A program made the position numbers and the translations under genes. Below are positions 317-56,192 of a stretch of 64,000 nucleotides of DNA, piece by piece. The notes below the pieces were generated by a model. That model ran no database searches. It was not told where the DNA came from and was given only the letters and a program-made list of their open reading frames with translations. Source of the stretch: Ilumatobacter fluminis (GTDB lineage Bacteria > Actinomycetota > Acidimicrobiia > Acidimicrobiales > Ilumatobacteraceae); the NCBI RefSeq assembly GCF_004364865.1, contig NZ_SOAU01000001.1, positions 1,860,001-1,924,000 on the forward strand, given 5' to 3'. Within the stretch, counting starts at the first letter, position 1. Each line of letters starts with the position of its first letter.

Positions 317-2041
317 TCAGAGTTCCATCTGGACGACGAGCTGGTCGGCGGCGGCCGGCGACCCGACCAGGTGCCCCTGCACCAGGTCGCATCCGGCGGC
401 GCGCAGCCGGCGCAGCTGCTCCAGTCCGGTGACCCGCTCCGCGACGACCTCCATGTTCAGCGCATGGGCGAGCAGGACGAGGGCGCGCACGACACGGGTG
501 TCGGTCTCGGAGGCGCCGTTCGGCAGCGCCAGGCTCCCGTCGAGCTTCAGCACGTCGGCGCCGATGTCGGTCATGAGTGAGAGTGCGTGCGAACCGGTGC
601 CGAAGTTGTCGATGGCGACTCGAACGCCGACGCGACGCAGTGCTCGCACGGAGCGCACGACCTCGTCGGAGTCGTCGTCGACCAGGCTCGCCTCGCGCAC
701 TTCGAGCACCACCTGGCGCGGCCGCAGTCGGAACTCGCGGAGCAGGTCGACGACTCGGTTGACGAAGGTGGGCCCGGCGAGTTGGAGGCGGCTCACGTTG
801 ACGTGCACCGAGAAGCGGGACCCGACCAGTCCGGCGTCGATCCACTGCCGAGCCGTCGCACATGCTTGCTGCAGGACCCAGTCGCCGATCGGCACGATGA
901 CGCCGGTCTCTTCGGCGATCGGGATGAACTCGCCGGCCTCGACCCTGCCGCGAGACGGGTGGTTCCACCGCAGGAGCGCCTCGGCCGCTTCGGCCATTTC
1001 CGACACCGCGGAGAAGATCGGCTGGTATTCGACCTCGAGCTGGCCGTCGCGGAGCGCCCGCGACAGCGCCGACGACAGTTCGGTGCGAACCCGAGCCTGG
1101 CTGCCCAACTGCTCGGAGAACTGGGCCGTGTGGCCCCGCCCGCGCTGTTTGGCGGCGTGGACGGCGGTGTCGGCGCGCGAGATCAGCTCGAGTGCTCGGA
1201 GTCGGCTGTCGGGGTTCGGTTCGTCCGACGAGCTGCTCCACGAGTCGTCGACGACGGCGACGCCGACGCTGACCGACACGTCGAGTTCGAGTTGCTGGAT
1301 CGTGAGGCGGCCGGTCAGCGACCGTCGGATGCGATCGGCGAGTTCGAGCGCCGCCGGTGGACCGTCGAGATCTCGACACAGCACGATGAACTGGTCGCCG
1401 CCGATGCGAGCGACGAGGTCGTCCGGACGCACCGCAGTACTGAGGCGGCGAGCCGTCGAGGCCAGTAGCCGGTCACCGGTGTCGTGGCCCAAGGCGTCGT
1501 TCACGTCGGCGAGCCGGTCGACATCGATCAGCAGCACCGCCGTCGTGGTGGCACCCGGCGACGCGAGCGCTTCGCCGATCCGCGCGATCGCAGCGGAGCG
1601 GTTCAAGAGGCCGGTCGTCGGATCGTGTTCGAGCTGGTGGACGAGACGGGCGACGCGTTCGCGTTCGTGGGTGACGTCGTCGGCGAGGATCGCCAGGTAG
1701 CCGCCCGCCGGGTGGGCTGCATCGTGGTGTGCGTGCACGGTCACGGCGTGGACCGACGGGCGTTCGAGCGTGGATCCGAGTGACACCTCGCCCGACCATG
1801 TGCCACCCTCGGGTCCGTCGAGGAGCTGCTTGGGCACTTGATCGAGGACGATCGTCAGTGCGTCGGACGCCACGCCGGCGGACAGTTGGAACAGTCGTGC
1901 TCCGAGCGGGTTGGCGTGCAGGACGCTGCCGTCGATCCCCAACACGGTGACGGCGAGCTCGGCGGCGTCGACGACCGTGGCGAGTGCGCGGGTGGGAGTC
2001 CCGGCGTCGTTCGGTGTGGTGGTCGTCGTGTCGTCAGTCAT
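317..2041 (-). CDS. PAS-GGDEF-EAL cyclic-di-GMP signalling protein
   Basis: The 574-aa soluble protein has a PAS-like N-terminus (about residues 15-130, with ...GIDGSVLHANPLGARLF), a GGDEF domain (about 135-300) and an EAL domain (about 315-570). The GGDEF signature reads ARIGGDQF, so the last acidic residue pair is altered (GGDQF), and cyclase activity may be weak. The EAL signature EALLRWNHPSRG and a later DNFGTG (usually DDFGTG) are visible, so one metal-binding Asp is replaced by Asn. The family makes or breaks c-di-GMP, and both altered motifs leave the net activity uncertain. The start overlaps the stop of the lipoprotein gene upstream (ATGA), so the two are translationally coupled. No membrane segment is seen. 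Confidence 0.9.
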   Translation of the reverse strand: MTDDTTTTTPNDAGTPTRALATVVDAAELAVTVLGIDGSVLHANPLGARLFQLSAGVASDALTIVLDQVPKQLLDGPEGGTWSGEVSLGSTLERPSVHAVTVHAHHDAAHPAGGYLAILADDVTHERERVARLVHQLEHDPTTGLLNRSAAIARIGEALASPGATTTAVLLIDVDRLADVNDALGHDTGDRLLASTARRLSTAVRPDDLVARIGGDQFIVLCRDLDGPPAALELADRIRRSLTGRLTIQQLELDVSVSVGVAVVDDSWSSSSDEPNPDSRLRALELISRADTAVHAAKQRGRGHTAQFSEQLGSQARVRTELSSALSRALRDGQLEVEYQPIFSAVSEMAEAAEALLRWNHPSRGRVEAGEFIPIAEETGVIVPIGDWVLQQACATARQWIDAGLVGSRFSVHVNVSRLQLAGPTFVNRVVDLLREFRLRPRQVVLEVREASLVDDDSDEVVRSVRALRRVGVRVAIDNFGTGSHALSLMTDIGADVLKLDGSLALPNGASETDTRVVRALVLLAHALNMEVVAERVTGLEQLRRLRAAGCDLVQGHLVGSPAAADQLVVQMEL

Positions 2042-2610
2042 GTCGGCGGGGGAACGTCGAGTTGTCCGATCACCGTGGCCTGCGCGATCGCGATCAACGC
2101 GATCATGCCGACGAGTTCGGTGACACCAGTGTCATCGGCAGCTTCGACCTGTTGGTTGAGCGCGTAGACCGTGATCTGGAGATCGGCGTCGCCGTCATCG
2201 GTGCACCAACCGGGCCAGCGCGCCCCGGTCTCCGAGGGCGGCCACCAGAACGATCCCGGCGGCAGAGCCCCTTCGGTGAGACCGGCAGCAGCGGGATCGA
2301 TCCCGACGAGTACCTCGTGCGGGGAGCCGTCGATCGAGAAGACGACGGCGAGGTCCGCCGTGCCCTCCGGCACGGCGGTCCAGCTGACCGCCGGGGCGGC
2401 GGCGTCGGTTCCGCACGCGGAGCGCGCCGGCACCAGGCCGTCGGAGCCCCACGGCGAGATCACCCGGAACGAGGGCCCGGGGACGGTGGCGGGGGTCGTG
2501 GTCGTCGTAGCCGGCAGGGGTTCGACGGCCGGCGGGAGAGTCCGTCCGTCGCCGCTGCTGCACGCGCCCGACAGGACGGCGGCGACGGAGACGGCGGCGA
2601 CGAGACGCAT
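2038..2610 (-). CDS. PEBP/YbhB-like lipoprotein
   Basis: This 190-aa protein starts with a short lipoprotein signal ending in LSGAC, so the mature protein should be anchored to the outer face of the membrane by Cys16 or nearby. After a Thr/Pro linker, the remainder resembles the phosphatidylethanolamine-binding-protein fold: FSIDGSPHEVLVGIDP and the C-terminal LQITVYALNQQVE followed by TELVGMIALIAIAQATVIGQL-type sequence match YbhB/YbcL-type proteins. The canonical GPCPP motif is replaced by WPGWCTDDGD. The bacterial family binds small anionic ligands, but its role is generally unknown. It is the first gene of a two-gene operon with the c-di-GMP protein (ATGA overlap) and is divergent from mca. 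Confidence 0.7.
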   Translation of the reverse strand: MRLVAAVSVAAVLSGACSSGDGRTLPPAVEPLPATTTTTPATVPGPSFRVISPWGSDGLVPARSACGTDAAAPAVSWTAVPEGTADLAVVFSIDGSPHEVLVGIDPAAAGLTEGALPPGSFWWPPSETGARWPGWCTDDGDADLQITVYALNQQVEAADDTGVTELVGMIALIAIAQATVIGQLDVPPPT

Positions 2611-2677
2611 CGGAGCGAGCGTAGTGAGGCTGGTATCGGGCGTCGTGGCGCGCCCCGACCGGGGTAGCGTTCAGGCG

Positions 2678-3601
2678 ATGGCAGCCGACTGGACGATCAT
2701 GACCGTGCATGCCCACCCCGACGACGAGGCGTCGAAGGGCGCCCCAACGCTCGCCAAGTACCACGAGCAGGGGGTTCACACCGTGCTCGTCTGTTGCACC
2801 GGCGGTGAGGAAGGCGATCTCCAGAACCCCACCTTGCGCGAGCCCGGGCAGCCGTTCCACGACCTGACACCCGAACAGGAGCGCGAGCTCGTCGTCTCGA
2901 TGCGGCCGGGCGAACTCGACGCCTCGGCGAAGGTGATCGGGTTCGACGAGGTGATCATGCTCGGCTACCGCGACTCCGGCATGGCCGACACGCCACCGAA
3001 CGAGCACCCCGACTGCTTCCACCAGGCCGACCTCGACGAGGCGACGGGTCGGCTCGTGGCGCACATCCGCCGCACGAAGCCGCAGGTGCTCATCACCTAC
3101 TCCGACGACCAGCAGGGCTACCCGCACCCGGATCACCTTCGCGTCCACGACATCTCGGTGCTCGCGTTCGACCGTGCCGGTGACCCCGACTGGTACCCGG
3201 AGGCCGGTGCGCCGTTCCAGCCGCTCAAGCTCTACTACTCCACCTGGAGCCGGCGCCGGCTGGTCGCCATGCACGAGGGGCTGCTGCGACACAAGGGCGA
3301 GTCGCCGTTCGACGAGGCGTGGTTCGAGCGTCCCGATACCGACCACCGCGTCACGACCCGTGTCGACATCGGCGACTACTTCTGGGCGCGCACCGGCGCG
3401 CTCAAGGCGCACGCCACCCAGGTCGACCCGACGGCCGCCTTCTGGTTCGGCCTCACCGACGAACAGCTCCGCGACGTCTACCCCTGGGAAGACTGGATCC
3501 TGGCACGGTCGCTCGTCGGCGACATCCCCGACCCGTACGCCGACGGTGGCGAGTACGAGCACGACCTGTTCGACGGCGTCGCTTCCGAGGTGACGTCGTG
3601 A
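2678..3601 (+). CDS. mca: Mycothiol S-conjugate amidase (LmbE/PIG-L family)
   Basis: The 307-aa protein starts MAADWTIMTVHAHPDDEASK. The HAHPDDE motif (zinc ligands His13 and Asp16) and a later YPHPDHLRVHD supply the metal site of the LmbE deacetylase family. VCCTGGEEGDLQNP is close to the TGGERGD(I/V)LNP motif that distinguishes Mca from MshB. Mca cleaves mycothiol S-conjugates to glucosaminyl-inositol plus a mercapturic acid, so it detoxifies electrophiles in the cytoplasm and implies that this organism makes mycothiol. A longer open frame exists upstream, but the ATG at 2678 fits family length and avoids overlap with the divergent lipoprotein gene. The gene ends in GTGA, shared with the start of the next small gene. 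MshB is the main alternative. Confidence 0.85.
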   Translation: MAADWTIMTVHAHPDDEASKGAPTLAKYHEQGVHTVLVCCTGGEEGDLQNPTLREPGQPFHDLTPEQERELVVSMRPGELDASAKVIGFDEVIMLGYRDSGMADTPPNEHPDCFHQADLDEATGRLVAHIRRTKPQVLITYSDDQQGYPHPDHLRVHDISVLAFDRAGDPDWYPEAGAPFQPLKLYYSTWSRRRLVAMHEGLLRHKGESPFDEAWFERPDTDHRVTTRVDIGDYFWARTGALKAHATQVDPTAAFWFGLTDEQLRDVYPWEDWILARSLVGDIPDPYADGGEYEHDLFDGVASEVTS

Positions 3602-3834
3602 GCGTGCAGTACCGCCTCGCCGTCGCGAAGAAGGACGAACGGGTCGAGGGCCCGGACGATGCCGACATCGTGTTCACGGCTCCGGTCGATGTGGTGACCG
3701 CCGACGACTTCGACGCCACCGTCGAGTTCATGCGGGGCAAGGTGAAGGCGACGGGGCACACCGGCGAGGTGCTGGCGGCGCTGCGTCTCGGCGACGTGAC
3801 GGCGGCGTTCAGCCGGCTCGCATCGCAGCTCTGA
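3598..3834 (+). CDS. Small conserved-looking protein coupled to mca
   Basis: This 78-aa product starts at the GTG that overlaps the mca stop codon (GTGA), a strong sign of translational coupling. The sequence is acidic and soluble (VSVQYRLAVAKKDERVEGPD..., ...EVLAALRLGDVTAAFSRLASQL) with no membrane segment, Cys motif or known domain that I recognise. Small unknown genes often follow LmbE-family genes in actinobacteria, so a role next to Mca is possible but unproven. Its last 26 bases overlap the 3' end of the convergent deacetylase gene. Confidence 0.65.
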   Translation: MSVQYRLAVAKKDERVEGPDDADIVFTAPVDVVTADDFDATVEFMRGKVKATGHTGEVLAALRLGDVTAAFSRLASQL

Positions 3835-4648
3835 GTTCGCGATACCCGATCAACGTCGCCCCGGCGGCGTCGAGCGCCGACTGCAAGGTGCCGTCGGTCG
3901 CGTAGGCCAGGTCGTCGATCCACTCGTCGGCGTGTTTCGTGAGCGCCCGCACCTCGGGGCTGTCGATGGCCGGCTGGATGTGGATCTCCGTGACGCCGCT
4001 CGGGAGGTCGGCCAGCGTGCGCCCGACCCGCTCACGCGAACCGGCTCGCCAGTCGTGATCGAAGTGGTCGGGGAAGACGATGCCCTCGTCGGCCGCGAGC
4101 TTCCGGAACGGGAACCCGGCCTGATCGGCGCTGACGGTCGACGGCAGTCGGATCGGCAGCGCGAACTCGACGGCCAGGTCGACGTAGATGCCGAAGAACT
4201 CGGGTCGCAGTGTGATCGCCGTGAGGTGCGGTGCCAGATGGGTGACGTCGATGCCCCACGCGATGGCGCGTCCGATCTGGGCCTTGAGCTCGCGGTAGAC
4301 CTCGTCGGCGTCGGCGTGCTCCCACAGGTCGTCGAGGTTGCGGGGGAAGCCGGTTTCGCCGGAGTGCAGACTCGGGGCGTGGGTGACCGGCCCCCACCGA
4401 TAGAGCTCGTGCTCGGCGTTCAGGGTGAGGTGCACCCCGATGTCGTCGGTCGGCAGGCACTCCGCGGCTGCGTGCCGTGCCCACGGTGCCGGCACCATGA
4501 TCGACGCGCACGTGGCCACCCCGTCGCGAATCGCCCGGTACACGCCGACGTTGGCGGCGTGGCACGAGCCGAGATCGTCGCACGAGACGATCACGAGCTT
4601 GGCGTCGGACGGGTGCCCCAGGCGTTCGGCGAGCTCGCTCACGGGCAC
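3809..4648 (-). CDS. ChbG/HpnK (YdjC)-family carbohydrate deacetylase
   Basis: About 279 aa from a GTG start (VPVSELAERLG); a GTG two codons later is also possible. Motifs of the YdjC fold are visible: VIVSCDDLGSCHAANVGVYRA near the N-terminus (Asp-Asp metal ligands), DIGVHLTLNAEHE (His ligand) and VTHLAPHLTAI (second His). Members remove N-acetyl groups from chitooligosaccharides or hopanoid-linked sugars; the substrate here cannot be told from sequence. A longer upstream open frame is rejected because it would run into the nuclease gene and reads as Arg-rich noise. It overlaps the convergent small mca-linked gene by 26 bp at its 3' end. Confidence 0.8.
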   Translation of the reverse strand: MPVSELAERLGHPSDAKLVIVSCDDLGSCHAANVGVYRAIRDGVATCASIMVPAPWARHAAAECLPTDDIGVHLTLNAEHELYRWGPVTHAPSLHSGETGFPRNLDDLWEHADADEVYRELKAQIGRAIAWGIDVTHLAPHLTAITLRPEFFGIYVDLAVEFALPIRLPSTVSADQAGFPFRKLAADEGIVFPDHFDHDWRAGSRERVGRTLADLPSGVTEIHIQPAIDSPEVRALTKHADEWIDDLAYATDGTLQSALDAAGATLIGYRELRAAMRAG

Positions 4649-4686
4649 AGACGCTACCCGGCTCGGCGTCGAGGCGGCGGGAGTGC

Positions 4687-5247
4687 TCAGCGGCAGGCGG
4701 CCCAGAGGCCGACGTCGTCGCGTTCGGCGTCGCGGGCAGCGTCGACCATGAGCTCGGCATAGGTGGTGTTCGGCTCGATCGACAGCGGCGTCGCGTATCC
4801 CTGGCGGACGAGTTCGTAGTTCACGAAGATGCCGTCGCTCGCTCGATAGACGTAGGCGAGCAGGCGGCCGTAGTCGTCGCGGGCGACGACGTCGCGTTCG
4901 AGTCGGACCGGTGTGCCCACGTCGATCAGCGCGCGTGCGTACTCGTGGGCCGCGTCGGCGAAGCACTCGGCGTCGTTGCCGGGGCGGTCGCCGCTCGACT
5001 CGTGGGCGATCTCGGGGGTGTCGATGCCGGTGAGTCTCACCCGTTCCTCGACACCGTCGATGATGACGTCGATCGTGTCGCCGTCGACCACCCAGTCGAC
5101 GACGGCGTTCGCCTCGACCGCTCCGGGCGTGGGTGTCGGCGTGGTGGTTGCGCCGGTGGCAGCGTCATCGCCGTCGCACGCACCGAGCGCGGCGACGAGG
5201 GCGAGTCCACCAGAGAGTGCGAGGGCGCGACGCACCAGGGCATTCAA
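4687..5247 (-). CDS. Thermonuclease-family (SNase-like) lipoprotein
   Basis: The 186-aa protein has a lipoprotein signal ending LVAALGAC, a Thr/Pro linker (TTTPTPTPGAVEA), then a staphylococcal-nuclease domain from about residue 48. VVDGDTIDV, VRLTGIDTPE and ARDDYGRLLAYVY carry the Ca-binding Asp residues and the Arg/Glu/Arg catalytic set of the family. The product is expected to cleave nucleic acids outside the cell while membrane-anchored. It stands alone between the deacetylase and the thiolase, with only a 24-bp gap to the thiolase stop. Confidence 0.85.
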   Translation of the reverse strand: MNALVRRALALSGGLALVAALGACDGDDAATGATTTPTPTPGAVEANAVVDWVVDGDTIDVIIDGVEERVRLTGIDTPEIAHESSGDRPGNDAECFADAAHEYARALIDVGTPVRLERDVVARDDYGRLLAYVYRASDGIFVNYELVRQGYATPLSIEPNTTYAELMVDAARDAERDDVGLWAACR

Positions 5248-5271
5248 CCAAGGTGCGTCGCGGACCGGACG

Positions 5272-6459
5272 TCAGAGGCGTTCGATGATGGTGCCGGTGC
5301 CGAGGCCGCCACCGCAGCACATCGAGACGAGGCCGTAGCGGCCACCGGTGCGCTCGAGCTCGTTGAGTGCCTTCGTCATCAGGAATGCGCCGGTGCCGCC
5401 GAGCGGGTGACCCAGTGCGATCGCGCCGCCGTTCGGGTTCGTCTTCTCGAGGTCGGCGCCGACCTCCTTGGCCCAGGCGAGCACGACCGACGCGAAGGCC
5501 TCGTTGATCTCGAAGATGTCGATGTCGTCGATCGACAAGCCGGTGCGATCGAGCAGCTTCTGTGTCGCGTCGATCGGGCCGGTGAGCATCAGGACCGGGT
5601 CGACACCGACGAGGCATGCGTCGACGACCCGAGCTCGCGGCGTGAGCCCGAGCTCGTCGGCCTTCGCCTCCGTCATCACGAGCAGCCCGGCCGCGCCGTC
5701 GGAGATCTGCGACGAGTTGCCGGCGGTGTGGACACCGTCTTCGCGTGCGACCGGCTTGAGGGTCGACAGCTTCTCGAGCGACGTCTCACGCAGCCCTTCG
5801 TCGCGGGCGACGGTGTGCGTCGTCTCGAGCAGCTCGCCGTCGTCGCCGCGGTCGGGCGCCTCGATCTCGATGTACTGGCCGTCGAATCGGCCCTCGGCCC
5901 AGGCGCGAGCGGCGCGCTCCTGCGAGGCGAGTCCGAACCGGTCGGTGTCGTCACGGGAGATGCCCCACTTGTCGGCGATGCGCTCGGCGCCCTCGAACTG
6001 GGAGGTCATCTCGTACTGGTCGAAGTAGGTGCGCGGGATCGGCACGCCGAGGCCGAGCTGCTTCGCCGAGTTGGAGCCGATCGGGATGCGGCTCATGACC
6101 TCGACACCGCACGCCATGGCGACGTCGACGGTGCCCGATGCGACCAGCGAGGTGGCGAGGTTGGTCGCCTGCTGGCTCGAACCGCACTGGGTATCGACGG
6201 TGGTGGCGGCCGTTTCGAGCGGCAGACCCGCCGCCAGCCATGCGGTGCGGGTCACGTTGAAGCTCTGCTCGCCGACCTGGCTCACGCAGCCGCCGACGAC
6301 CTGTTCGATCGCCGACGGGTCGATGCCGGTGCGGTCGACGAGACCCTGCTGCACGTTCGAGAGCACCTCGGCAGGATGGAGGGTGGAGAGGCCGCCACCG
6401 CGCCGCCCGATGGGCGTGCGGAGGGCATCGACGATGACGACGGAGCGGGAGTTCGACAT
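5272..6459 (-). CDS. Acetyl-CoA C-acyltransferase (thiolase)
   Basis: The 395-aa protein has the full thiolase pattern: nucleophile Cys92 in DTQCGSSQQA, the GHPLGGTGA motif with the catalytic His, and the second Cys in CCGGGLGTG near the C-terminus. It cleaves 3-ketoacyl-CoA with CoA, or runs in reverse for biosynthesis. Length and N-terminus (MSNSRSVVIVDALRTPIG) match degradative thiolases of the FadA5/FadA6 kind in actinobacteria, but chain-length or steroid specificity cannot be assigned. It lies 51 bp downstream of gntR on the same strand, so it could share the transcript, although its metabolic link to the sulfur genes is not evident. Confidence 0.9.
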   Translation of the reverse strand: MSNSRSVVIVDALRTPIGRRGGGLSTLHPAEVLSNVQQGLVDRTGIDPSAIEQVVGGCVSQVGEQSFNVTRTAWLAAGLPLETAATTVDTQCGSSQQATNLATSLVASGTVDVAMACGVEVMSRIPIGSNSAKQLGLGVPIPRTYFDQYEMTSQFEGAERIADKWGISRDDTDRFGLASQERAARAWAEGRFDGQYIEIEAPDRGDDGELLETTHTVARDEGLRETSLEKLSTLKPVAREDGVHTAGNSSQISDGAAGLLVMTEAKADELGLTPRARVVDACLVGVDPVLMLTGPIDATQKLLDRTGLSIDDIDIFEINEAFASVVLAWAKEVGADLEKTNPNGGAIALGHPLGGTGAFLMTKALNELERTGGRYGLVSMCCGGGLGTGTIIERL

Positions 6460-6510
6460 GGTCGAAACCCTACGGCACCGTGGTGTTCCGCCGACGAGCC
6501 GGGAGCGGAC

Positions 6511-7287
6511 TCAGCGGGTCATCTGGATGCGGAGTTCGTTGCGCTGACCTGCGGTCCAGTCGGCGACGAACGTGAACCGGTCGCCACGGATGAGCGTCAG
6601 GCGCCATTCGATCGGTTCGCCCTTGCAGGCGCCGAGCCGCTCGATCGCGAACACGGCTTCGCCCTCGTCGAGCCCGAGGATGTCACGCTCGTCGGCGGTC
6701 GGGATCTTGGGGTGGATCTGTTCCCAGCCCTCGCCCGGTCGCTTGCCGAGCGTGCGCTCGAGCTCGTTGTAGAGCGACGTGTGGGTGAAGTCGGCGTCGA
6801 GCAGTGGTTCGGCCACGTCGGCGGGCAGCCAGATGCGGTCGATGGCGAGAGGTTCGTCGCCGGCGTAGCGGATGCGGTCGATGAGCACGAGCTCGGTGTC
6901 GGGGTCGAGGTCGAGCCGTTCGGCGACCTCGGCGTCGGTGACGCGCTCGAGCGCACGGACGACGCTGTGCTGCTCGATCCCTGCTTCCTCGACGACCTGG
7001 AACAGGCTGTAGAGCGCACCGAGCGACCGTTCGAAGGTGCGATGGTCGACCGAGGTGCCGACGCCGCGTGCGCGGCGGACGATGCCGTCGGCGCCCAGCT
7101 GCGCCACTGCGTGGCGCGCCGTATGGCGGCTCACCTCGTAGACCTCGATCAGTTCCCGGTCGGTCGGGAACCGGTCGGCGAAGTGACCGAGTTCCATGCG
7201 GCGTCGCAGCTCGCGTTCGAGCTGCGCCCACAGGGGCACGTCGCTCGAGCGTTCGAGCGGTTCGGCGAGATCGGCGAAGTCAGTCAC
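6511..7287 (-). CDS. GntR/HutC-type transcriptional regulator (UTRA domain)
   Basis: The 258-aa protein has a winged HTH (about residues 15-85: VPLWAQLERELRRRMELGHF, FPTDRELIEVYEVSRHTARH) followed by a UTRA ligand-binding domain (about 105-250: ERVTDAEVAERLDLDPDTEL, DRIRYAGDEPLAIDRIWLP). HutC-type proteins are repressors released by a small effector. The gene begins 73 bp after the stop of the molybdopterin oxidoreductase gene on the same strand, so it may be the last gene of the sulfur operon and autoregulate it. It is therefore one candidate to bind the TGTCCGTAC element described below, but that is inference only. Confidence 0.9.
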   Translation of the reverse strand: MTDFADLAEPLERSSDVPLWAQLERELRRRMELGHFADRFPTDRELIEVYEVSRHTARHAVAQLGADGIVRRARGVGTSVDHRTFERSLGALYSLFQVVEEAGIEQHSVVRALERVTDAEVAERLDLDPDTELVLIDRIRYAGDEPLAIDRIWLPADVAEPLLDADFTHTSLYNELERTLGKRPGEGWEQIHPKIPTADERDILGLDEGEAVFAIERLGACKGEPIEWRLTLIRGDRFTFVADWTAGQRNELRIQMTR

Positions 7288-53207: not shown

Positions 53208-53480
53208 CAGGAGCCGGAAGTCGGCGCGACGCGTCCGCGGACGCGTCGACCGGGAAACCCTGTGACAGCCCCTGCGCCGGCTGGGGCGCATCCACCACCC
53301 CCCCCGCACCGACGCCCCAGCCGACGCAGGGTGCGGTGGTGCACAGCGGGGGTGGGCGGTCCGAAGCGAGTCGCTGCACGACGTGCCACGGCTCACGCGT
53401 CCGCGGACGCGTGGGAGCGGTTCGGTCCGGTCGAAAGAACCGTCCGGTGCCGGGTGCCGGCAGATAGGCTCTCGCCCGCT
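53208..53480. repeat. Nested palindromes in a non-coding gap before tRNA-Cys
   Basis: No gene is seen. Two copies of the 18-bp palindrome ACGCGTCCGCGGACGCGT occur at 53229-53246 and 53395-53412; with flanks they extend to 22 and 20 bp. Between them a 19-bp inverted repeat with one mismatch (CCCTGCGCCGGCTGGGGCG at 53270-53288 against 53313-53331) encloses a 24-nt loop. The first copy follows the acyltransferase stop by 20 bp and could terminate it. The duplicated outer palindrome is not explained by termination alone. Confidence 0.6.
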
Positions 53481-53555
53481 GGCGACGTGGCCGAGTGGCT
53501 TAGGCAACGGCCTGCAAAGCCGTCTACCCGGGTTCGATTCCCGGCGTCGCCTCCA
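53481..53555 (+). tRNA. tRNA-Cys (GCA)
   Basis: The acceptor GGCGACG pairs with CGTCGCC, and the anticodon stem ACGGC/GCCGT carries the loop CTGCAAA (anticodon GCA). The T-loop GGTTCGATTCC, discriminator T and an encoded CCA are present. The 3' 26 bases form the left att repeat of the adjacent element, so the gene stays intact after integration. Confidence 0.95.
53530..53555 (+). repeat. Left attachment repeat, inside tRNA-Cys
   Basis: Identical over 26 bp to 56167-56192; it covers the T-arm, acceptor and CCA end of tRNA-Cys, a classic tyrosine-integrase target. Confidence 0.9.
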
Positions 53556-53568
53556 CAAAGATGCTGGT

Positions 53569-53592
53569 CACGGGCCCGGAGACGGGCCCGTG
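53569..53592. terminator. Hairpin just after tRNA-Cys, inside the element
   Basis: A perfect 10-bp stem CACGGGCCCG/CGGGCCCGTG with a GAGA loop. It could end the tRNA transcript on the plus strand and the element's membrane-protein gene on the minus strand. It replaces the original tRNA terminator, which was displaced by 2.6 kb. Confidence 0.65.
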
Positions 53593-53608
53593 GTCACACT
53601 GTGGTCAC
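53590..53608. other. Candidate arm-type recombinase sites, left end
   Basis: GTGGTCAC occurs at 53590-53597 and again at 53601-53608, about 35-50 bp inside the left att repeat. The same octamer or its inverse recurs near the right end, a layout typical of integrase or excisionase arm sites. Confidence 0.5.
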
Positions 53609-54312
53609 CGTTGGGGTGCGGTCAGGCCTTCTGCGTTTGCAAGTCTCGAAGCATCATCGGGGTACATGCGCCAGAAATCGCTCTGCTGCCCGTTTGCCAG
53701 CTGATGTGTTGCCCCGGTGCCTTCCCTGTCCCCGAACCACACGATCCACTCGTCGCCAGTCACGTCAAGGTATTGGATCCCGAATCGTGTCAAGGCGCTG
53801 CCGTCGAGCGTTTGATCGGGTGGCGTGTGGAAACCGAACAGGGTCTGAGAAACATGGTCATCCGGTTCCGGCCCGAGTACGTCGCGCAGAGTATCGATGT
53901 CAGTTGACCCTGCGCTCCGAGTCACGTCGATGTTGGTCTTCCACTCCAGCCTCAGTCGGACGTGACGAATCGGCCTACCGCTGAAGTTGTAGACAACCGA
54001 CTTCAGGTTCCAGAGCGCAAAGTCGTCGGTCGCGCCCTCGAGTTCCATGTTTACCCGGGCGATAACCGATCGAGCATCCTGCACTCGTAGATTTGCAGCC
54101 CTTAGCCACTCCCGCCTGTCGGCTCGCTCTTGCTCAGTTGATAGGGCGAATAGCGCAACCATCACTGCCGAGACGGTGCCTGCCGCCGCCATCCACTCGC
54201 CAACCGATCCGACACGCTTCTCGTGCAGGGGGCCATCGACTAGGGATAGGAGGATTAGAGCACCTCCGACAACAAGGAATACTCCTCCCGGGATCAGCCA
54301 CAAACGCCTCAC
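53605..54312 (-). CDS. Element-encoded membrane protein of unknown function
   Basis: The 235-aa protein starts at a GTG that overlaps the stop of the integrase-like gene (GTGA). Two membrane segments occupy about residues 5-25 and 40-60, followed by a roughly 170-residue part that looks beta-rich (LWNLKSVVYNFSGRPIRHVR, YLDVTGDEWIVWFGDREG). No known domain is recognised. It sits between the recombinase and the att site, the cargo position in small elements, so a host-interaction role (for example exclusion or defence) is possible but not shown. Confidence 0.7.
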   Translation of the reverse strand: MRRLWLIPGGVFLVVGGALILLSLVDGPLHEKRVGSVGEWMAAAGTVSAVMVALFALSTEQERADRREWLRAANLRVQDARSVIARVNMELEGATDDFALWNLKSVVYNFSGRPIRHVRLRLEWKTNIDVTRSAGSTDIDTLRDVLGPEPDDHVSQTLFGFHTPPDQTLDGSALTRFGIQYLDVTGDEWIVWFGDREGTGATHQLANGQQSDFWRMYPDDASRLANAEGLTAPQR

Positions 54313-54818
54313 CGCGTTCCTCCGATGAACGATGCCGCCAGATCCGCCGTCGCCTCGTCGTCTCCGTCGAGCACGTCGCTGTAGACCCGGAGCGTGATGG
54401 CGATGTCTGCGTGACCGAGTCGCTGCGACAACACCTTCACGGGCACGCCTGACTTGAGCGGGGCCGTTGTGTAGGAGTGTCGAACGTCGTGCAGGCGGAT
54501 CGCCGGCACCTCGGCAGCTTTGGTGGCCGCATGGAAGCGACGGGTCAGCACCTGCGGGTGGATCGGCGAACCGTCAGGCTCGGTGACGATCAGGGGAGTG
54601 TCGTCGCCCGCGATCGTCGTGCCGGCCACCTTGTGGGCGAGGCTCGGCAGTGGCCCAAACTTGGCGACGAGTTCGGTGTGGGGGATTCTTACGGCGTGAC
54701 GAAACCCCGGTGCTCGCGCCAGCTCCCCCCTGGCGACCATCTTTCGGATCAGGGAGGCGCTGACGCCGTGCATCTGCGCGACCTCGTCGGCGGTATATGA
54801 GGCTTTCGGGAACGTCAT
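54309..54818 (-). pseudogene. Excisionase-like HTH joined to the C-terminal part of a tyrosine integrase
   Basis: The 169-aa frame starts with a MerR/excisionase-type HTH (residues 6-55: YTADEVAQMHGVSASLIRKM, RIPHTELVAKFG). From about residue 74 it becomes the C-terminal third of a phage integrase: His110-x-x-Arg113 (LHDVRHSY), His136 (RLGHADIA) and nucleophile Tyr146 (RVYSDVL). The first catalytic Arg and the core-binding domain are absent, so recombination by this protein alone is unlikely. The simplest reading is a deletion that fused xis to the 3' end of int in frame. The frame is intact, so a new regulatory role cannot be excluded. Its ATG overlaps the stop of a small frame upstream. Confidence 0.8.
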
Positions 54819-55002
54819 ACGATGAAGCCTCGCACTTGATGAGGATCGCCGTCCGACTGCCCGCTGTCTCGCTCGATCGCCGCTAACCGTCGCAGCTCCT
54901 GGGCCACGACCGCTGCGTCATGACGACCAAGACTCCCGTCGATCGCAAGGGAGCGGGCAAGTTGCTCGAGTTCGGCGGGTGGGGGCGATTGTCGTCGGTC
55001 AT
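54815..55002 (-). pseudogene. Possible frameshifted small gene upstream of xis-int
   Basis: One frame reads PPPAELEQLARSLAIDGSLG then HDAAVVAQELRRLAAIERDS and stops at a TGA overlapping the xis-int ATG (ATGA). It has no ATG; an ATG in another frame at 55002 (MTDDNRP) would join it with a single-base change in a run of C. It therefore looks like a small coupled gene broken by one base, or one that needs a frameshift. Function unknown. Confidence 0.35.
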
Positions 55003-55031
55003 GTGCGCAATGATGGCGAGGGGGTGCGCGC

Positions 55032-55988
55032 TTATGGACGACGAGACATCAGAACGCCGAGGAGCGAGGCCTGATCCTCGATCACCGTTCGATCGTTGGT
55101 GTCAGCGTAACCCGTGTCGCCCATGGCAAACACGGCCCGCACGAGTTCAGCCGTGATCAGATCACGCTCGGTCTCGCTGTTCGCTGAGCCGGTGAAGAGC
55201 GGATACGTAAGCAGCGCGTTACGTCTCTGGTCATTTAGAACCGCGAGGTGCTGATTGGCGCGATAGTTGCGCACGACAAAGGCGAGTGCCCATGCGAGTA
55301 GTCCGAGAAAGAACAGCCTCGCCGTGAGCTGACGGACGAGGTCTCCCCATTGCTCGGACCCATCTTCGTTCGTAGCGACTTCAACGCTGTCGAAGAGATA
55401 CAGCGCTGCCGCGAACGTCAGCACAACGAGAACCACCACAGCGACCAGATAGTTCCTCGCCGACTCTTGGTGCTGATCGGCTTGCCGCCCGTAGTGTCCG
55501 CTCAGTTCGTCGGCCCCGGCGTCGCCGACTGACTTTCGGACGCTTCGGAGTAGCGCATCAATCTCATCGCTGGCAGCACGAGCAGCCTCAGCCGACTGCT
55601 CCAGCTCAATCTGTTGTTCGGTCGCTTCCACCTCGCGGGCACCGACGTAGGGGCGTACGTGCTCAGCGAAGTAGTCACGCACGTTCTCGACTCGGTTGGC
55701 GATCTGGTTGCGAGCGTTCACCGGATCAGACTGAGCAGGCGTGAACTCCTCGATCTGGTCCATCGAGCTGAAGAGCGCTGAGAGATTGTTCGAGATCTCG
55801 GTGGCGGTTCGGCTAGGGAGCTCAACTCGGTCCTGCTCTGCAAGCAGCAGCAGCATCCGCCGAATGAACATGAACTTCGGCACCACCTCTTCGAAGTTGA
55901 GATCGCCGAGGTTGGCAGTTCTCGCCAGTGCCTCAATGTTGTCTACCGTCAGGCGCGCAATCGCCTGGTCATAGTTCAAGGTGTCCAT
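55032..55988 (-). CDS. Element-encoded coiled-coil membrane protein of unknown function
   Basis: The 318-aa protein starts MDTLNYDQAIARL after GGGGGA; longer starts have no ribosome site. The N-terminal 175 residues are helical, with a coiled-coil-like acidic stretch (EATEQQIELEQSAEAARAAS). Two membrane segments follow (about 185-205 and 230-250), then an 80-residue cytoplasmic tail. No enzyme motif is recognised. It is first in the element's minus-strand gene run. Similar 'long helical domain plus two membrane helices' layouts occur in abortive-infection effectors, but nothing here proves that. Confidence 0.7.
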   Translation of the reverse strand: MDTLNYDQAIARLTVDNIEALARTANLGDLNFEEVVPKFMFIRRMLLLLAEQDRVELPSRTATEISNNLSALFSSMDQIEEFTPAQSDPVNARNQIANRVENVRDYFAEHVRPYVGAREVEATEQQIELEQSAEAARAASDEIDALLRSVRKSVGDAGADELSGHYGRQADQHQESARNYLVAVVVLVVLTFAAALYLFDSVEVATNEDGSEQWGDLVRQLTARLFFLGLLAWALAFVVRNYRANQHLAVLNDQRRNALLTYPLFTGSANSETERDLITAELVRAVFAMGDTGYADTNDRTVIEDQASLLGVLMSRRP

Positions 55989-56031
55989 GTCGTTCCCCCG
56001 CTGGATGACAGTGAGGGAGAGAGTAGTCCCG

Positions 56032-56063
56032 TTGGTCACACCGTGGTCACAACGCGTGACCAC
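56032..56063. other. Candidate arm-type recombinase sites, right end
   Basis: TTGGTCAC (56032-56039), GTGGTCAC (56043-56050) and the inverse GTGACCAC (56056-56063) cluster about 105-135 bp inside the right att repeat. They match the octamers at the left end. Confidence 0.5.
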
Positions 56064-56166
56064 AGGGCCGAACTAGACAGCACAACGGGGGAGCGGTCGA
56101 CGCCAGAAACGGCCATCTAGCTGGACTGACGCGAACGGACCGACACCGGCCGTCGTCACCCCAATC

Positions 56167-56192
56167 GGGTTCGATTCCCGGCGTCGCCTCCA
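56167..56192 (+). repeat. Right attachment repeat
   Basis: A 26-bp copy of the tRNA-Cys 3' end (GGGTTCGATTCC ... CCTCCA) that marks the right boundary of the element. Confidence 0.9.

Follow-up and report, generated by a model that had tools for sequence, protein, structure and literature searches.

The window, a 64,000-nucleotide stretch of the single-contig genome of Ilumatobacter fluminis (G000; 4.78 Mb, 99.97% complete), carries a small element between two copies of the tRNA-Cys 3' end (Table 1). The tRNA-Cys region is present in nine of the ten genus genomes, and the eight besides the window's own were compared. In three (G009, G008, and G005) the site is empty: the GGDEF/EAL gene found past attR in the window there comes immediately after tRNA-Cys. 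The site is occupied in G004, the only one of the eight in which the upstream neighbour gene of the window is matched, and the tRNA-Cys stretch compared in G001, G002, G006, and G007 gave no match to the GGDEF/EAL gene. The exact core repeat and the empty sites in relatives together identify the interval between the cores as an integrated element.

Table 1. Coordinates of the element, its att sites, and its genes in the window
Feature	Coordinates	Strand	Basis or remark
tRNA-Cys (gca), integration target	53481..53555	+	ARAGORN
attL core, 27-bp direct repeat of the tRNA-Cys 3' end	53529..53555	+	exact repeat
Integrated element between att cores, about 2.6 kb	53556..56165	.	GC 0.62 vs flanks 0.69-0.70
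Paired arm-type sites GTGGTCAC..GTGGTCAC inside attL	53590..53608	+	motif count
Membrane-like protein gene, 235 aa, GTG start	53605..54312	-	start overlaps fusion stop by 4 bases
Xis-int fusion ORF, ATG start, 169 aa	54309-54818	-	uninterrupted frame
Tyrosine integrase C-terminal fragment (residues 73-169)	54309..54602	-	PF00589; int relatives
Junction zone of the fusion ORF (about residues 57-72)	54603..54650	-	alignments to G004 xis and int relatives
Xis-like HTH part of the fusion ORF (residues 1-63)	54630..54818	-	HTH_17; G004 xis similarity
Small conserved ORF	54848..55000	-	frame shifted vs G004
Membrane-like protein gene, from its ATG	55032..55988	-	searched with one extra codon, to 55991
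Arm-type sites inside attR (pair and one inverted copy)	56032..56063	+	motif count
attR core, 27-bp direct repeat	56166..56192	+	exact repeat; flank beyond matches post-tRNA-Cys sequence in G009, G008, G005

The tandem pair TGGTCACNNNGTGGTCAC, counted with at most one mismatch, occurs exactly twice in the window (0.02 expected), just inside both ends of the element, and the lone GTGGTCAC octamer shows no enrichment in the window (5 seen, 3.9 expected). A similar arm-type pair lies at the same distance from the core on the attL side in G004, G047, and G028. The stop codon of the tRNA-proximal membrane-protein gene sits in an arm-type site (53601-53608), as does the int stop in G047. Between the acyltransferase gene and tRNA-Cys, an 18-base palindrome, ACGCGTCCGCGGACGCGT, is present in two exact copies (53229-53246 and 53395-53412).

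The central ORF, which overlaps each neighbouring frame by 4 bases, is composed of an Xis-like HTH and a tyrosine integrase C-terminus. Residues 8-51 match HTH_17 (27.5 bits vs a Pfam cut-off of 27.0), residues 8-50 match the NCBIfam 'excise' model TIGR01764 below its cut-off (20.1 vs 28.8 bits), and residues 77-149 match Phage_integrase (PF00589; profile 96-168 of 172, E 3e-11). The HTH part shares 70% identity with the separate G004 xis over xis residues 1-46, and the integrase part shares 62-64% with the tRNA-Cys integrase sequences of G047 and G028. Inside residues 57-72 the similarity to G004 xis fades and that to integrases starts, placing the break within this zone rather than at a single base. 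The GC content of the three codon positions is nearly equal on either side of the junction, and the chance that the frame is kept across it is, taken alone, about one in three.

The initial annotation had described a single in-frame protein joining an Xis-type HTH to an integrase C-terminus, with HxxR, His, and Tyr kept and the first Arg and core-binding domain lost; the 169-residue open frame, the Pfam matches, and the integrase alignment bear out both points. H110/R113 (HxxR), H136, and Y146, all in invariant columns of that alignment, are retained. The N-terminal domains are absent, as are the first catalytic Arg and everything else in the front half of the catalytic domain, and the HTH part stands in place of the arm-binding and core-binding domains; in a full relative (locus L024), about 290 residues precede the region matching the integrase part of the fusion. 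In lambda-type integrases the N-terminal region is the part that binds arm sites, and a tyrosine recombinase with all of these losses is not expected to recombine DNA. With its catalytic domain incomplete (profile 96-168 of 172 only), the fusion fails as an active tyrosine recombinase by PF00589. The integrase half-domain that is kept is not expected to fold alone, and the AlphaFold model of the fusion reaches no confident fold (mean pLDDT 54, pTM 0.30), a result that the shallow alignment of 11 sequences can produce by itself.

Two genes for membrane-like proteins and a small ORF complete the element; among three ORFs of the element searched against protein families, none is recognised as a tra, rep, or transfer gene. 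Neither membrane-like protein matches a Pfam, NCBIfam, PHROG, or PADLOC family above cut-off. The attR-proximal one was matched in one of 248 genomes, its own, and the tRNA-proximal one in its own genome and one other (G041, residues 6-68). In the small ORF upstream of the fusion, the conserved frame has none of the usual start codons, and its end overlaps the fusion ATG. The small ORF matches in 6 of 221 family genomes and is present in two copies in the G004 element; its G009 homologue lies away from tRNA-Cys, in L152 (G009:C1:276000-294000).

The related element of G004, a genome of the same genus, measures about 5.1 kb and occupies the same tRNA-Cys gene with the same neighbouring genes. 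There, xis is a separate 94-codon ORF (L021 12799-13083), and an int 3' fragment (L021 9671-9929) lies about 3 kb from it, starting at the equivalent of fusion residue 81. The two parts of the fusion thus occur separately as well, and neither element has an unbroken int. The G004 int fragment is frameshifted, and such frameshifts could be sequencing errors because the assembly is 81% complete in 230 contigs. It is possible that the fusion is ancestral and was later split by an insertion in G004; in this comparison of two elements, however, the G004 xis has its own tail and runs on to 94 codons, and the G004 int stub starts about 8 residues later than that of the window.

Truncated integrases recur at this target. 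Both G004 and G028 have an int 3' stub close to tRNA-Cys, G029 has a broken int match, with a stop codon, beside this gene, and in G020 an int stub lies near a partial tRNA-Cys 3' end (L033). With loci L021, L023, L033, and L142, several genera of the family show a stub or a broken match of int close to tRNA-Cys. Among the loci near tRNA-Cys, no member of this integrase class was clearly full-length; the G047 copy runs off its contig, past whose end the rest of the G047 element lies. Used as a query across the class, the G047 int fragment matches in 43 of 395 genomes at E <= 1e-28; among the matches listed, G000 reaches 64% identity, G029 61%, and all others at most 50%.

Investigation of other genomes and databases returned the junction from no second source. 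The family search gave 16 matches at E <= 1e-20 in 13 of 221 genomes, with residues 1-169 covered only by the window's own, and the same held among the matches listed for 100 relatives. The Xis profile matches in 2 of 221 family genomes at E <= 1e-8, G000 and G004. A GTDB r220 scan produced 12 loci, none reaching before residue 66, and IMG/VR produced 9, all beginning at residue 73 or later. Among phages, 431 records match, and three, among the 12 matches listed, cover >80% of the query at 27% identity and are annotated as site-specific integrase; none of the 66 matching plasmid records covers over 80%. One family match, in G017, extends from residue 35, but the frame there reads as an ordinary integrase. 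These negatives hold within the search thresholds and among the matches listed and are no proof of absence. No paper on a xis-int fusion was found in the open-licence literature.

Among patterns pointing to simple decay, the initial annotation had named a junction unique to this assembly and relatives with separate full xis and int genes. The junction was indeed seen nowhere else and xis is separate in G004, but int in G004 is itself a frameshifted 3' fragment, and the searches turned up no relative of this very element in which both xis and int are full and intact. The fusion is carried by only one of the genomes searched, and dN/dS was compared on its parts. Between the window and G004, dN/dS is 0.06 for the int fragment (84 codons, dS 0.80; 32 of 42 differences at third positions), 0.22 for xis residues 1-46, and 0.14 for the small upstream ORF (34 codons), with values of 0.05, 0.19, and 0.19 for three neighbouring host genes. 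By its low ratio, the int fragment was under constraint during most of the period that followed the divergence of the two elements, a constraint that presumably acted on a full integrase. The value of 0.06 is equally explained by a constrained fragment and by a full-length Int constrained before the deletion.

Polarisation of the differences by the majority of outgroups reveals an asymmetry between the two branches. Across residues 81-164 (four differences at the ragged ends, residues 166-169, being left out), 8 amino acid differences separate the window from G004; six polarise to the window (residues 103, 117, 120, 148, 157, and 164), none to G004, and those at 101 and 151 to neither. Six against zero on two branches is a small sample, with a hand-calculated two-sided binomial p of about 0.03. 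The window changes include A117T, A120P, and H148D, at positions that are uniform in 16 of 16 outgroup sequences (117 and 148) or in 9 close ones (120); H148 is kept in at least 90% of 11 rows including distant integrases. Changes in invariant columns number three in the window, three in the G028 stub, one in the G020 fragment, none in the G004 stub, and 0-2 in other relatives. On this alignment, the window's changes fit relaxed constraint after truncation, in small numbers.

Very probably, the element was frozen by a deletion that joined xis to the 3' end of int, leaving a CIME-like remnant. Of the two readings offered by the initial annotation, this is the one that gains support, from the junction unseen elsewhere in the searches, the separate G004 xis, and the window-branch changes. 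Further signs in its favour are the shifted frame of the small upstream ORF, the int stubs or broken int matches of G004, G028, G029, and G020, the lack of a similar integrase in the host genome, and the poor structural model. A small integrative element entered the tRNA-Cys 3' end, as shown by the exact core repeat and the empty sites in relatives. By comparison with G004, G047, and G028, its ancestor probably carried the small ORF, xis, and a full int reading toward attL. A deletion in the window lineage would then have removed the xis end together with roughly the front three quarters of int, leaving the two stubs in frame, probably by chance. Because the fusion product should not recombine DNA, the element would be locked unless a cognate Int arrives from outside, and any remaining activity is predicted to be that of the Xis-like HTH alone. 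Persistence of the int stub may be due to its continued reading, between xis and a gene that overlaps the int stop with its start, and to its position at the tRNA end of the element, where the tRNA gene would limit deletions; since int reads toward the tRNA, its 3' end would be the part hardest to delete without reaching that gene.

A CIME (cis-mobilizable element) is described as a decayed ICE or IME retaining attL and attR (PMC5704250). In the window element, both att sites are retained at the tRNA 3' end, with 27-bp exact repeats and arm-type sites, the integration gene is reduced to the int 3' end with no close copy in the genome, and no transfer gene is recognised. Unlike a CIME, the element is very small and has its xis stub fused to its int stub; its descent from a conjugative or mobilizable element is putative. 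From its sequence, it resembles a CIME or a dead integrative element. The HTH part resembles HTH_17/TIGR01764 excisionases in carrying the small HTH domain of that profile and differs from them in its fusion to an integrase fragment and in its score below the TIGR01764 cut-off.

The tRNA-targeting xis-int modules of actinobacterial AICEs offer a partial parallel. According to PMC3218068, xis and int of pSAM2 form one operon, and Faln1739 of Frankia, whose int is truncated by a stop codon, still excises, for which ribosome slippage through the stop is hypothesised. The window element likewise has xis and int together and a truncated int; unlike AICEs it is without a recognised tra or rep gene, and unlike Faln1739, its int has lost the front, with the rest joined to xis. 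On the Faln1739 precedent, rescue of mobility is conceivable in principle. That the element is a non-autonomous passenger, with the fusion supplying Xis and the helper integrase of a related element moving it in trans, is nonetheless very improbable. The element has its two core repeats and the arm-type sites at either end, and each attR core is identical to its own tRNA in G000 and in G004 (L021 9283-9309 and 14419-14445) despite a one-base difference between the two tRNA-Cys genes within the att repeat, as if each had integrated separately; the identity could reflect separate integrations or gene conversion, however, since the latter could also keep the core repeats identical. A cognate integrase is missing from the host genome, in which the five PF00589 matches comprise three full-length proteins, the fusion, and one C-terminal remnant, with no protein similar to the integrase of the fusion at E <= 1e-3. 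For Faln1739 itself, stop-codon slippage is put forward as a hypothesis, and no closely related int was found in that genome (PMC3218068).

The other reading of the initial annotation, a selected regulator, found no positive support. Its Xis-like part would bind near the att sites, with the Int tail adding contacts and blocking excision or repressing island genes. The open frame with its overlaps on both sides, the retained catalytic His, Arg, His, and Tyr, and the low dN/dS of the int part would suit such a role, but the window-branch changes fall at otherwise uniform residues, the junction is seen in no second genome, the half-domain is not expected to fold alone, the model of the fusion is poor, and the integrase N-terminal domains are gone; we consider this reading very improbable. 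Highly improbable is its extension to a domesticated anti-excision factor that occupies the att sites and keeps a cargo island in the tRNA gene permanently, also against incoming related elements of the same site. An assembly or sequencing artefact joining two parts, to which the presence of the fusion in one assembly only would conform, is scarcely credible given the nearly complete single-contig genome, the nearly equal codon-position GC across the junction, and the consistent att repeats and neighbouring frames.

The evidence points to a xis-int fusion produced by ordinary decay and of small comparative value. With the deletion preferred, the locus illustrates a tRNA-borne island losing mobility, in which one deletion can make xis and int one open frame. 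Such a frame might be annotated as an integrase, and stop-free fusions should not be taken for new regulators. Seen across several genera of the family, the int 3' stubs close to tRNA-Cys form a small data set on island decay.

The stubs begin at similar places: about residue 72 in the window, 81 in G004, and about 74 in G028. A survey of PF00589 in the genus gave 100 matches in 10 genomes, of which those starting at profile position 58 or later begin at 58, 76, 87, 88, 91, 96, 101, and 113, the match at 76 having a first-half match beside it. An int-truncation hot spot near the VFT/TEPDGSP box is not claimed, because stubs cut further upstream go unrecognised as stubs and the cluster at 87-101 may reflect no more than the point from which the profile is informative.

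A second element lies at a tRNA-Gly (tcc) gene of the same genome (L103, G000:C1:1599000-1612000, about 739-6977). Comparison gave no confirmation of an int N-terminal stub in it. Its C-terminal integrase remnant, which carries a stop codon and starts at a seemingly equivalent place to the stubs at tRNA-Cys, adjoins the tRNA gene, and the 31-base tRNA 3' end is repeated about 6.2 kb away.
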